Assembly: GCF_000378205.1 (NCBI RefSeq)
Contig: NZ_KB899407.1
Location: 62,001-126,000, forward strand
Source: Sediminispirochaeta bajacaliforniensis DSM 16054
GTDB taxonomy: Bacteria > Spirochaetota > Spirochaetia > DSM-16054 > Sediminispirochaetaceae
Length of the DNA stretch: 64,000 nucleotides
Reading direction: 5' to 3'
Shown here: in pieces, positions 33,605-62,545 of the stretch
Position numbering within the stretch: position 1 is the first letter of the stretch
Layout: every line of letters begins with the position of its first letter
Position numbers and translations under genes: made by a program
The notes under the pieces: generated by a model
What the model saw: the letters and a program-made list of their open reading frames with translations, nothing else
Database searches by the model: none
What the model was told of the DNA's origin: nothing

Positions 33605-34360
33605 CTAAAAGGCCCCATAGGGATGGAGATCTTCAAGATCGATTCTAATGCGAACGGTGCTCCGATATCCACCCGCAGAAACTGCGGATATCGGGGCTTC
33701 GGCCAGCACGACACGTCCGGTAGCGACTCGAGGTTTATTCGGTTCTATGGAACGCAGATAGTCCCGGAAGGCCTGTTTGATTGCCTGCCGATGAGCCTCG
33801 ATGCGGCCGAGATATCCGAGGGAGAGAGCCGCCTCCGCACTAGCCGACGCAGAAGCGTGCACCCCGCTATTCCAGAAACGAAGACGAAGCATCTGGTCCG
33901 GCGACAGATCGTAGCGGATCCTGGCAAAAAATTTATTCCCACGCATCCAGGTATCGAGTACGCGCAAGGCAGGATCTCCCCAGGGGATGGTCGCCACAGG
34001 ATCGGCATGAAAAACCTCGCTGACCCCTCGGCTGCGATCAAGAGGAGTATACTCCAGTCGATAGCCGTAGATCATCCCCGAAATCACAAACTGGGCCTCC
34101 TCAAGGAGTCGGTGAATTGCCTCCTCCCGCTTTAGAGGAACAGGAGAAATCGGAAGGATCTCAGGCTTCTGAGACGTACTCTCTTGGGAATCGCCTTTAT
34201 CAGTCGTAGGAATGGAAACAGCGGGTGTAAGTTCGACCCATAATTCCGCAGTAAGAAAATCAACTTGCTCATCATACGCCCAAAGGGGAACAAGAAAAAA
34301 AGAAAGCAAAAAGAAAAGAAGCAGCCACCCGATTCTTTTTAGGGAAAACCCAATCCTCAT
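33605..34360 (-). CDS. exported hypothetical protein
   Basis: 251 residues with a signal peptide (about 1-28, cleaved near LWA-YDEQ). A Pro/Ser/Thr-rich linker (about 50-75) leads into a mixed alpha/beta domain ending in a basic, beta-rich segment. I do not recognise the family and there is no lipobox, so it is probably periplasmic or outer-membrane associated. Its start overlaps the rhomboid stop by four bases, so the two are translationally coupled. Confidence 0.78.
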   Translation of the reverse strand: MRIGFSLKRIGWLLLFFLLSFFLVPLWAYDEQVDFLTAELWVELTPAVSIPTTDKGDSQESTSQKPEILPISPVPLKREEAIHRLLEEAQFVISGMIYGYRLEYTPLDRSRGVSEVFHADPVATIPWGDPALRVLDTWMRGNKFFARIRYDLSPDQMLRLRFWNSGVHASASASAEAALSLGYLGRIEAHRQAIKQAFRDYLRSIEPNKPRVATGRVVLAEAPISAVSAGGYRSTVRIRIDLEDLHPYGAF

Positions 34361-35001
34361 CTCCTTCCGCCGCCTCGAAACACGTCTATGGGATTGATGT
34401 TAAGACGGACGAGGAAGTAGAAAAATGCAAAAACGAAACCTGCCAGATGCGTGAGATGAGCCACACCCGAGTTGATGGATAAAAGCTGGCTAAAAAGTTC
34501 GATAGCGGTATATCCAATGACCAAAAGCGGGGCCTTTACCGGAATAATTCCCATAATGTAGATGTTTGCATACGGAAAGTAGACGGCAAAGGCAAGAAGA
34601 ACCGCAAAAATAGCCCCTGATGCCCCCAGCAAAACAGCGCCGTACATTCCGGTGAACATATAGACAATAAAAGAGAAGAGACCGGCCAGAAATCCTGTCA
34701 AGAGATAGAACAGCAGAAATTCACTGCTCCCTATGCGGCGTTCGACCTGGGTTCCAAAGAAAAAGAGGCCGAGCATGTTAAAAAAGATGTGGCTTATATT
34801 GGCATGCGTAAACATATAGGTAAAAAACTGCCAGTAGAAGCCTTTACCGATGATTAGACCGGGAATCAGGGCGGTATAATAGCGACTTTGGGGCGATATG
34901 GTATTAAAAACGAAAAAGACAATATTGATGATAATGATGCCGAATGCCGCGTTGTAATAACGATAGCGGAACGGTCTTCTGATGATCGATCTGTTATCCA
35001 T
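34357..35001 (-). CDS. rhomboid-family intramembrane serine protease
   Basis: 214 residues with six hydrophobic segments. The catalytic features of rhomboids are present: HANISHIFFN (oxyanion His and Asn), GASG with the nucleophilic Ser, and a His in the last membrane helix (HLAGFVFAF). It would cleave membrane proteins within or near the bilayer; the exported protein encoded immediately after it is not obviously a substrate. AAGGAAAG lies before the ATG. Confidence 0.93.
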   Translation of the reverse strand: MDNRSIIRRPFRYRYYNAAFGIIIINIVFFVFNTISPQSRYYTALIPGLIIGKGFYWQFFTYMFTHANISHIFFNMLGLFFFGTQVERRIGSSEFLLFYLLTGFLAGLFSFIVYMFTGMYGAVLLGASGAIFAVLLAFAVYFPYANIYIMGIIPVKAPLLVIGYTAIELFSQLLSINSGVAHLTHLAGFVFAFFYFLVRLNINPIDVFRGGGRR

Positions 35002-35080
35002 GCTTTCCTTCCTACAAAGAAAGTAGTCAGTTTTTCTCCTCGGGTCAACCGCATAAAAAGAAAAGGCGACGGCTCTATCG

Positions 35081-35110
35081 TTGACCGATAAGGCCTTCTG
35101 TTCGTATGCT
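35081..35110 (+). promoter_or_regulatory. rlmE promoter
   Basis: TTGACC at 35081-35086, 18-base spacer, TATGCT at 35105-35110, predicting transcription from about 35117. The in-frame TTG at 35081 is therefore the -35 box, not a start codon. Confidence 0.55.
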
Positions 35111-35146
35111 AAAAGAAAACCTCTAAACGGGAAAAAGGAGAGACAG

Positions 35147-35758
35147 ATAGCTTCAAATAAACGTGCAACAGCTGACTACTACAGCCAGCTGGCAAAAAAA
35201 GAGGGATATCCCGCTCGTTCGGTCTACAAGCTTGAAGAGATCGAGAAACGTTTTGCGGTGATCAACGCAGAACTTCCCATCCTGGATGTCGGAGCGGCAC
35301 CCGGCAGTTGGAGCCTCTTCATTTCCAGGTTAATCAAAGCCAAGGGATTGCAACCGACCATCGTTTCGGTTGATTTGAAAGAAATGACGGTCCCCAGAAA
35401 AAGCGGCATCACCGTCATCACCGGAGATGCCTTTGCGGGAGATGCATGCCAAAGCATTCGAGACAGGGGCCCCTATGGTACCATTGTCTCCGATGCGGCT
35501 CCGGCTACGACCGGCAACCGTATCGTCGATACAAGAAGATCTTTTTCGCTTGCATCATCGGTTATCACCCTTGCCGAAGAATTTCTCACCCCGGGTGGAA
35601 ACCTGGTTGTTAAGATTTTCCAGGGAGGAGATGAGCAAGAGCTGATGGAGATGGTGCGCAGCCGCTTCTCTCAGCTGAAAACCCTCAAGCCTAAGGCGTG
35701 TCGTAAAGACTCTTTTGAGACCTATTTGATCGGGCTGAGGAAAAAACACAATGGCTGA
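35147..35758 (+). CDS. rlmE: 23S rRNA 2'-O-methyltransferase RlmE (FtsJ), apparent AUA start
   Basis: About 203 residues of FtsJ/RlmE. AdoMet motif DVGAAPGSWS, then VDLKEM, VSDAAPATTGN and the C-terminal KPKACRKDSFETYLIG give the K-D-K-E-type catalytic set of 2'-O-methylases. The family modifies U2552 of 23S rRNA. The start is odd. AAGGAG at 35135-35140 sits six bases before ATA (35147), and no ATG, GTG or TTG in frame lies between the predicted transcription start and the conserved core. The open frame reaches TTG 35081, but that would lie in the promoter. Translation from ATA gives the normal N-terminal length. The stop overlaps the lipoprotein start by eight bases. Confidence 0.9.
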   Translation: MASNKRATADYYSQLAKKEGYPARSVYKLEEIEKRFAVINAELPILDVGAAPGSWSLFISRLIKAKGLQPTIVSVDLKEMTVPRKSGITVITGDAFAGDACQSIRDRGPYGTIVSDAAPATTGNRIVDTRRSFSLASSVITLAEEFLTPGGNLVVKIFQGGDEQELMEMVRSRFSQLKTLKPKACRKDSFETYLIGLRKKHNG

Positions 35759-36461
35759 CGTAAACATCGCCGCACGTGGTTCCACATTGCTTTTCCTCGT
35801 CGTAGGTGCCTATGCCGCCCTCATCCTCTCCTCCTGTGCGTCTCTGTCCCCAATTGGTTCATCGAGAACGTCACCATCCGCAATGGGTAACATGCTCACA
35901 GGCCCTGCCGCAGAAACCCAGCAAGCACTGATCGACTCCGCCTATACCCTACTTGGAAAAAAGCGGCTTGCCGTAAAAGGTAAAAACTTTCGGCTCGATT
36001 GCACCGGAGTCGTGCAGGCAGTCTACTGGGGAGCCGGTATCGATCTCGTCGCCCCTCTTTCCCGCTATACGGGAAACGGTGTGTCACGATTATATGCCTA
36101 TCTCAACGATCAGGGGCTGCTTGAAGAAGCAAGCACTCCGAGTCCGGGAGATCTGATCTTCTGGGACGACACCTACGACAGGAACGGTAATGGCAAAGTT
36201 GATGACCCCCTTACCCATATTGGTATGGTTGTTAACGTTTGGGAAAACGGCGATCTTGAGTATATTCATCACAACTATCGAAAAGGCATAGTCCTCGAAA
36301 AGATGAACCATAAGACTCCATCTTTATATACAAGGGAAGAAAATGGTAAGTCCATTATTGTCAACAGCCCAATGCGTATGCGGGGAAGTCCGGCATACGA
36401 TAAGACCTTGTCGGGGGAGCTCGTGCATGCCTGGGGCCATGCCTACCTTCTTGCCTATTAG
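35751..36461 (+). CDS. NlpC/P60-like lipoprotein with an EF-hand-like loop
   Basis: 236 residues. A lipoprotein signal peptide ends in a lipobox (LILSSC). The domain has the NlpC/P60 arrangement: catalytic Cys in RLDCTGVVQAVYW, His in LTHIGMVV and a following HHN. It would cut peptide bonds in peptidoglycan stems from the periplasmic face. Between Cys and His is DRNGNGKVDD, which fits a calcium-binding EF-hand or dockerin-type loop and is unusual for small family members. It overlaps rlmE by eight bases. Confidence 0.87.
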   Translation: MADVNIAARGSTLLFLVVGAYAALILSSCASLSPIGSSRTSPSAMGNMLTGPAAETQQALIDSAYTLLGKKRLAVKGKNFRLDCTGVVQAVYWGAGIDLVAPLSRYTGNGVSRLYAYLNDQGLLEEASTPSPGDLIFWDDTYDRNGNGKVDDPLTHIGMVVNVWENGDLEYIHHNYRKGIVLEKMNHKTPSLYTREENGKSIIVNSPMRMRGSPAYDKTLSGELVHAWGHAYLLAY

Positions 36462-61644: not shown

Positions 61645-61673
61645 ACGCTATTTACTTCCCTTCCCTCTGTCAA
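61645..61673 (-). promoter_or_regulatory. promoter of the DAHP synthase fusion gene
   Basis: Reverse strand: consensus TTGACA (61673-61668), 17-base spacer, TAGCGT (61650-61645), six bases, ATG at 61638. It overlaps the end of the transglycosylase gene. Confidence 0.45.
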
Positions 61674-62367
61674 GTACATAACGAACCTTCCCCGCCTCTT
61701 TCGCAGCACTCTTTCCGCGAAGATGGAGATGTTCAAATCGCTCATTGAGTTCTTCCTGATAATCAAGGATCCGTGATATATAGTCCAGGGTCATCTTGGG
61801 CGTCCCCCTTCCGGTGACCCTGCTTCTCCCGGCGTTATACATGGCAAGAGCGACCACTCGATTCTCGCCGACATCCAGACAGTAGCGCAGATAGTGCAAG
61901 CCTTCTTTGGCATTCGTCACCGGATCAAAAAACTGCTCTTCGGAAAGATGAGGGAAACTGTGACTGTTCAGCTGAAACAATCCCCTGTCGACGGAACCGG
62001 AATTACGGTTTACGGCGTCGGTTCGATAGCGACTTTCCACCCACGCAAGGGCAAAGGCAAGGGTGGGGGGGATATCGTTCTTCTCAGCTTCCTGCAGGAC
62101 GATATCGGCGATGCGCTGAGAACCGGTTTCTGCGGTAAAAAAATCCTTCACTTGCTGATGAAACATCGGATTACCGTAAAGTGCAAGAACAATATCATCA
62201 TCCGCCGCCACATCTATGGAATAAGACGTCTCATCCGCAGCACCGGAAACAGCTTCCACATCAACAAGATCGGCAGCCGGCTCCGGCGGCATCTCATTTC
62301 TGGAAACAATATGAGCACAGGTAAGGGTAATCGGTACCATCAGCAGAAAAAATGGAAACTTTCTGAT
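61648..62367 (-). CDS. lytic transglycosylase (SLT domain), apparent AUC start
   Basis: About 239 residues. The C-terminal SLT domain has the catalytic Glu in LAWVESRYR, then GLFQLNSHSFPHL and VALAMYNAGRSRVTG, as in Slt70 family 1 lysozyme-like domains. It cleaves glycan strands of peptidoglycan in the periplasm. TAAGGAGG lies six bases before ATC at 62367, and reading from there gives a proper signal peptide (RKFPFFLLMVPITLTC). The next ATG (62340) has no ribosome site and no positive residues. The open frame to 62505 is longer but implausible. Confidence 0.88.
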   Translation of the reverse strand: MRKFPFFLLMVPITLTCAHIVSRNEMPPEPAADLVDVEAVSGAADETSYSIDVAADDDIVLALYGNPMFHQQVKDFFTAETGSQRIADIVLQEAEKNDIPPTLAFALAWVESRYRTDAVNRNSGSVDRGLFQLNSHSFPHLSEEQFFDPVTNAKEGLHYLRYCLDVGENRVVALAMYNAGRSRVTGRGTPKMTLDYISRILDYQEELNERFEHLHLRGKSAAKEAGKVRYVLDRGKGSK

Positions 62368-62545
62368 GGTGGGCCTCCTTAAATCAATCTTCAAAGGTAA
62401 CAAAAATATGTACCCGAAACTGATGAAAAGCGGTGGAAAATCTGTGCTGTTCGGGATTTTCGGGCTCCATTTATAGCGATAGAAGGGGGAAAGATCAACG
62501 GGCAAAGGCGCTGTTCACACCATATTTTTATGATAAACTAGCGAA

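Follow-up and report, generated by a model that had tools for sequence, protein, structure and literature searches.

Comparison of two genomes indicates that rlmE of Sediminispirochaeta is probably translated from an AUA start codon

The stretch of Sediminispirochaeta bajacaliforniensis DNA analysed here (the window, 64,000 nucleotides) carries rlmE in the open frame 35057-35758 (+). We sampled the genus with two genomes, both of free-living spirochaetes, the window's own (G000) and a second one (G001). From the profile matches and the codon differences between them, the gene is read as 35147..35758 (+), with 203 residues including the one encoded by its putative initiation codon, ATA (35147..35149, +). 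Upstream lies the Shine-Dalgarno (SD) sequence AAAGGAG (35134..35140, +), seven bases complementary to the 3′ end of 16S rRNA and identical in G001; the anti-SD sequence GGATCACCTCCTTT was found in both genomes. An earlier note on this DNA had placed AAGGAG at 35135-35140, six bases ahead of ATA 35147, and these coordinates are correct, as is its observation that the sole ATG, GTG or TTG in frame upstream of the conserved core is TTG 35081. The promoter that it predicted, TTGACC-18-TATGCT at 35081-35110, is present with 9 of 12 matches and is unchanged in G001, but chance alone would yield 0.7 such sites over the same stretch, which makes it unremarkable as a motif and by score no better than chance. 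We treat its two parts, the −35 hexamer TTGACC (35081..35086, +), which includes the in-frame TTG that we do not read as a start, and the −10 hexamer TATGCT (35105..35110, +), as putative. The RNA 5′ end predicted from them falls near 35117 (+), and the leader shows no notable RNA structure (z 0.37).

Two neighbouring genes adjoin this region. A divergent gene for a rhomboid-family protease (34357..35001, −) has its intergenic region in common with rlmE. Downstream, the ATG of an NlpC/P60-like gene (35751..36461, +) overlaps the rlmE stop by eight bases (35751-35758), and the overlap is kept in G001. Given this overlap the two genes are possibly translationally coupled, and the output of the NlpC/P60-like gene may be affected by the rlmE AUA as well.

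The encoded protein matches the whole FtsJ-like methyltransferase domain profile (PF01728, positions 1-181) with 137.1 bits against a cut-off of 24.1. Its best NCBIfam match, across nearly its whole length, is rrmJ (TIGR00438), with 145.6 bits, under the strict equivalog cut-off of 300.15. It is also the only non-TlyA protein of the genome with an FtsJ domain above the Pfam cut-off; the second match above that cut-off is a fragment that scores best as TlyA, under TlyA's own cut-offs. The name rlmE rests on these two observations, and the product is, by best match, a putative 23S rRNA U2552 2′-O-methyltransferase. The residues of the K-D-K-E tetrad, which we take to be the catalytic motif of the family, look present by eye. 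The encoded enzyme is thus, by best match, that of the RlmE/FtsJ (RrmJ) family; what differs is the start codon, AUA here and AUG, GUG or UUG in the family.

The earlier note had proposed comparing this codon in related genomes, and in G001, whose RlmE is 95% identical to that of the window, ATA, SD and six-base spacing are all kept. The two genomes agree in every base from the SD through the spacer and the ATA to the 11th base past it, and each contains the 20-mer AAGGAGAGACAGATAGCTTC a single time, at the start of rlmE. Above this block the genomes differ by a one-base indel between TTG and SD and by a five-base indel above the TTG. The TTG-to-ATA distance is 65 bases in G001 compared with 66 in the window, which puts the TTG out of frame in G001. 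In G001 an in-frame TAA stands upstream and ATA is the twelfth codon after it, so that coding upstream of ATA could extend there by at most 11 codons; ATG, GTG and TTG are absent from this stretch and onward as far as the conserved Asp9. From the TAA to Asp9, ATA is the sole codon in G001 with a central U, the one base described as common to all bacterial start codons in the excerpted text of PMC4611024.

Downstream of this point the differences change in character. From ATA on, 34 of 204 codons differ (stop included), 23 synonymously and 11 non-synonymously, the differences numbering 8 at first, 5 at second and 22 at third codon positions, and the first four differing codons are all synonymous. 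Upstream of ATA, in contrast, the differences break the frame. Frame-breaking changes before ATA and synonymous changes after it are, as judged from the alignment, the pattern of a coding start at ATA. With a third-position divergence of rlmE of ∼0.11 (22/204, between two species), an A would stay the same in both genomes in about nine cases out of ten even without selection. The conservation of ATA speaks against an error, yet it is no proof that AUA has been selected.

We then placed the ATA among the starts of other Spirochaetia. A match to rlmE was obtained in 90 of 98 genomes (the eight without one are left out of the counts), and starts were read in all 90, from 30 loci and 60 stretches; a further 13 named loci, eight of them outside Spirochaetia, stand outside these counts. 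A canonical start precedes the core in 88 of the 90 genomes, the only exceptions being the two Sediminispirochaeta. The last canonical codon lies at most 25 codons before Asp9 in 85 genomes (ATG in 74, GTG in nine, TTG in two) and only further up in four, namely the window (TTG at 31 codons), L020 (ATG at 51), L106 (ATG at 37) and L137 (TTG at 28, with an additional ATG at 38), while G001 has no canonical codon before Asp9. A few of these last codons are probably internal; in L102, for example, a TTG lies one codon before Asp9 and an ATG at seven. The chosen start lies 5-13 codons ahead of Asp9 in 81 of the 88 other genomes, bracketing ATA at nine, and in 14 of the 88 it lies exactly nine codons before Asp9, the place of ATA. 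All 90 genomes have Asp9 itself, 89 have Ala15 and 75 have Tyr11 (positions from tblastn alignments). The earlier note had named orthologues with an ATG further upstream, giving conserved N-terminal residues, as evidence that would tell against AUA. The 81 bracketing starts agree with AUA; in L020, L106, L137 and L141 the N-termini are longer.

A paired screen of G000 against G001 covered 1.07 Mb of G000, ∼23% of the genome, with the C5 stretches left out. Of the 1,124 pairs whose pattern looked coding-like, 765 were kept as coding pairs; by reading, these include some shadow frames (e.g. a4205, a4221). By simple rules, 533 of the 765 pairs share a canonical start led by an SD, and another 57 share an ATG that closely follows a −10-like box. 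In 168 pairs the shared canonical start has neither of the two signals, and in seven the part that was read lacks a shared canonical start. An SD of at least 6 ahead of an in-frame ATH codon is by itself not rare, being found before 45 of 2,970 shared ATH codons in the vicinity of gene starts (ATA in 14 of the 45 cases), often because a real ATG adjoins. What is unusual at rlmE is that no other start is available.

Three filters were applied to these pairs. The first required a shared ATH, CTG or ACG with an SD of at least 5 and excluded pairs in which a shared canonical start has an SD of at least 4; it gave 27 pairs, and most of those inspected closely look internal. The second gave 51 rows in 41 pairs, among which only rlmE combines an SD core with three or more synonymous changes past the codon and an excess of synonymous over non-synonymous ones. 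The third asked for an ATH codon at a spacing of 4-9 from an SD of at least 6, with no canonical start further up that carries an SD, and left 17 rows. Eleven of these have an ATG or TTG one to three codons further on; in two of the eleven, a2033 and a3934, that codon is an ATG without an SD of at least 4, preceded in a2033 by a −10-like box. In a3934 the candidate codon is an ATT, three codons before the ATG. Three other rows have only SD-less upstream canonical starts and look internal, and in a1909 an SD-led ATG follows 24 codons later. The remaining two rows are rlmE and a candidate ATC, a2672, at 62365-62367 in the ORF 61648-62514 (−), which encodes an SLT-domain (lytic transglycosylase-like) protein with homologues in 34 of 60 genomes. 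Here TAAGGAGG stands six bases before ATC, which is followed by RKFPFFLLMVPITL and precedes a signal-peptide-like stretch, with the same ATC and SD in G001. TTG codons without an SD lie 9 and 12 codons upstream, in a strongly conserved stretch, which makes a2672 less certain than rlmE. Among the 765 pairs, rlmE is thus the clearest non-canonical start.

Within the genus, then, rlmE has no usable ATG, GTG or TTG, has an AUH codon at a proper distance from its SD, and keeps this arrangement in two of two genomes. The proposal that rlmE starts at AUA is well supported by the comparison, through the upstream stop in G001, the shared SD and ATA, and the start positions of relatives, and as the best explanation of these observations as a whole we consider it very probable that rlmE in Sediminispirochaeta is translated from AUA 35147. 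The shared ATA and the lack of a canonical start in G001 make a sequence error, an upstream start and a downstream start all unlikely. An ATA misread for ATG might be suspected because the assembly behind the window is a draft in 75 contigs, but the same ATA in identical context in G001, a single contig of 4,653,970 bases, leaves this reading with virtually no chance of being right. Initiation at TTG 35081, the sole in-frame canonical codon upstream, would make the N-terminus 22 residues longer. We find this extremely unlikely: the TTG is preceded by no SD, sits in the putative −35 box and, in G001, is out of frame with an intervening stop. The lack of an SD alone excludes no start, given the 168 pairs with neither SD nor −10 box. 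The same apparent absence of an SD from some genes of the genus lends something to a downstream start. One such start would be codon 15, a CTG in the window but in G001 a TTG to which automatic gene callers would be driven; the other would be the GTG 37 codons past ATA, the first canonical codon common to both genomes. A start at codon 15, however, would lose Asp9 (90 of 90) and position 11 (Tyr in 75 of 90), would use a CTG in the window, and has no SD to be seen before it, while the GTG lies inside the methyltransferase domain; a downstream start is in our judgement quite unlikely. A small upstream frame of six codons (ATG 35106, stop 35124-35126), found from ATG to stop in both genomes, might be thought to feed rlmE by frameshifting or re-initiation. 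Its ATG falls within the −10 box, 5′ of the predicted RNA start, and it ends 20 bases before ATA, where re-initiation would need the AUA anyway, so this too is highly improbable.

A different question is whether the AUA, taken as the start, does anything. It may be a tolerated, near-neutral weakening of an ancestral AUG in a gene of which little product is needed, with no regulation, and we give this an even chance of being right. The change amounts to one third base in one genus, seen in two genomes of modest divergence, the other 88 of 90 genomes have ATG, GTG or TTG, and the leader is without RNA structure. On the other side, a seven-base SD with good spacing has been kept, and the easy one-base reversal to AUG is absent in both species; these two points are suggestive only.

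Returning to AUA as a functional start, AUA is a codon that ribosomes normally reject as a start, and initiation at rlmE might proceed as follows. The putative promoter at ∼35081-35110 would give a short leader of ∼30 bases, on which AAAGGAG, six bases before AUA, would hold the 30S subunit at the start. Initiator fMet-tRNA (CAU) would then pair with AUA despite a mismatch at the third base, as known AUA-start genes suggest, and the protein would be expected to begin fMet-Ala-Ser-Asn-Lys. IF3 is described as discriminating against starts without a 3′ G, AUA included (PMC4611024, in excerpt), and because of this preference an AUA start is expected to reduce the output of RlmE and to tie it to IF3 activity. 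By analogy, AUA probably keeps RlmE output low, it may let the cell tune that output, and control of rlmE by IF3 is plausible.

The closest parallels come from Staphylococcus aureus. According to the excerpted text of PMC13009471, infC, ccpN and citZ start at AUA there, retapamulin profiling marks infC and ccpN, and extended SDs are stated for infC, ccpN and cvfC1 (AUU). Reporters with the AUA of ccpN or citZ or the AUU of cvfC1 reached ∼10% of the output seen with AUG when the medium was poor, the ccpN reporter up to 30% in rich medium, and the non-canonical start of ccpN is conserved between S. aureus and B. subtilis (same excerpt). The strong SD before AUA in infC and ccpN is as in rlmE, and the lower output measured for ccpN and citZ would be expected for rlmE by analogy. 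These are, however, other genes in another phylum, and the excerpt bases their starts on ribosome profiling, with reporters as well for ccpN and citZ, whereas the rlmE start is proposed from the comparison of genomes.

Escherichia coli infC, which reportedly starts at AUU and is autoregulated by IF3 (the work is said to be that of Butler in 1986), resembles rlmE in that a gene for the translation machinery has a non-canonical AUH start, which IF3 could in principle sense. Since RlmE is a different protein from IF3, any control loop would be indirect, unlike that of E. coli infC. In G000, G001 and G002 (L047, L048, L049), the last a member of the same family outside the genus, infC starts with GGAGGAAGA-TTG and not with AUU or AUA, and the E. 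coli IF3 loop is thus not mirrored in the genus.

The rlmE starts of relatives show a second unusual feature. A −10-like box, here a TAnnnT hexamer that ends 5-8 bases before the chosen rlmE start and scores at least 4 (the number of matches to TATAAT, increased by 2 where TGn precedes), occurs in 25 of the 90 genomes, none of which has an SD of at least 4; of the rest, 34 have an SD (the window genome and G001 included) and 31 have neither. When the test was shifted upstream by 15, 25, 35 and 45 bases, 3, 4, 6 and 10 of the 90 genomes scored. The 25 genomes are related and hence not independent, and their sequences suggest that the rlmE mRNA is leaderless in 25 of 90 Spirochaetia genomes. Leaderless translation is doubtful for two of them, L096 and L116, which start with GTG, since AUG is said to be needed (PMC4611024, in excerpt). 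Within the same family, G003 belongs to the −10-box class and G002 has TATACT ten bases before its ATG. We also noted TGCTATACT or a similar −10-like box six bases before the rlmE ATG in L006, L007, L008, L009, L012 and L028. Leaderless transcription may be common in the genus Sediminispirochaeta, in up to 57 of the 765 pairs if a loose rule is applied that also counts internal codons. Outside the window, G000:C2:56926-57819 and G000:C2:235241-236029 have an ATG with a −10-like box at 5-8 bases.

Leaderless messages, too, are described as antagonised by IF3 (PMC4611024, in excerpt). In an excerpt of PMC11194073, E. coli without ten 23S modification enzymes accumulates free 30S and 50S subunits, and RlmE restores this profile at 37 degrees but not fully at 25. 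These observations are compatible with the idea that translation of RlmE in Spirochaetia is tied to IF3-disfavoured initiation, through a leaderless AUG or an SD-led AUA, and senses a 50S assembly defect by feedback. Low RlmE would let free 30S accumulate, IF3 per 30S would fall, and the discrimination against AUA or leaderless starts would relax, so that RlmE would be made until 50S maturation recovers. The loop is coherent as a hypothesis, although we think it speculative, with the chances well against it.

AUH starts are already known (E. coli infC; S. aureus infC, ccpN and citZ), and rlmE would join them. Among the matches listed for the genus, for RlmE and U2552, and for start codons and leaderless messages in titles and abstract openings of the open-licence PMC literature, none describes an AUA start of rlmE. 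To our knowledge, standard gene finders allow only NTG starts, and databases would then list genes with AUH starts in shortened form or at the wrong place. With an AUA on a late 50S-assembly factor in two species, the small set of known AUH-start genes would gain a member from the translation apparatus. The AUA may also offer a simple test case of whether start-codon stringency, exerted through IF3, is used to balance subunit production.
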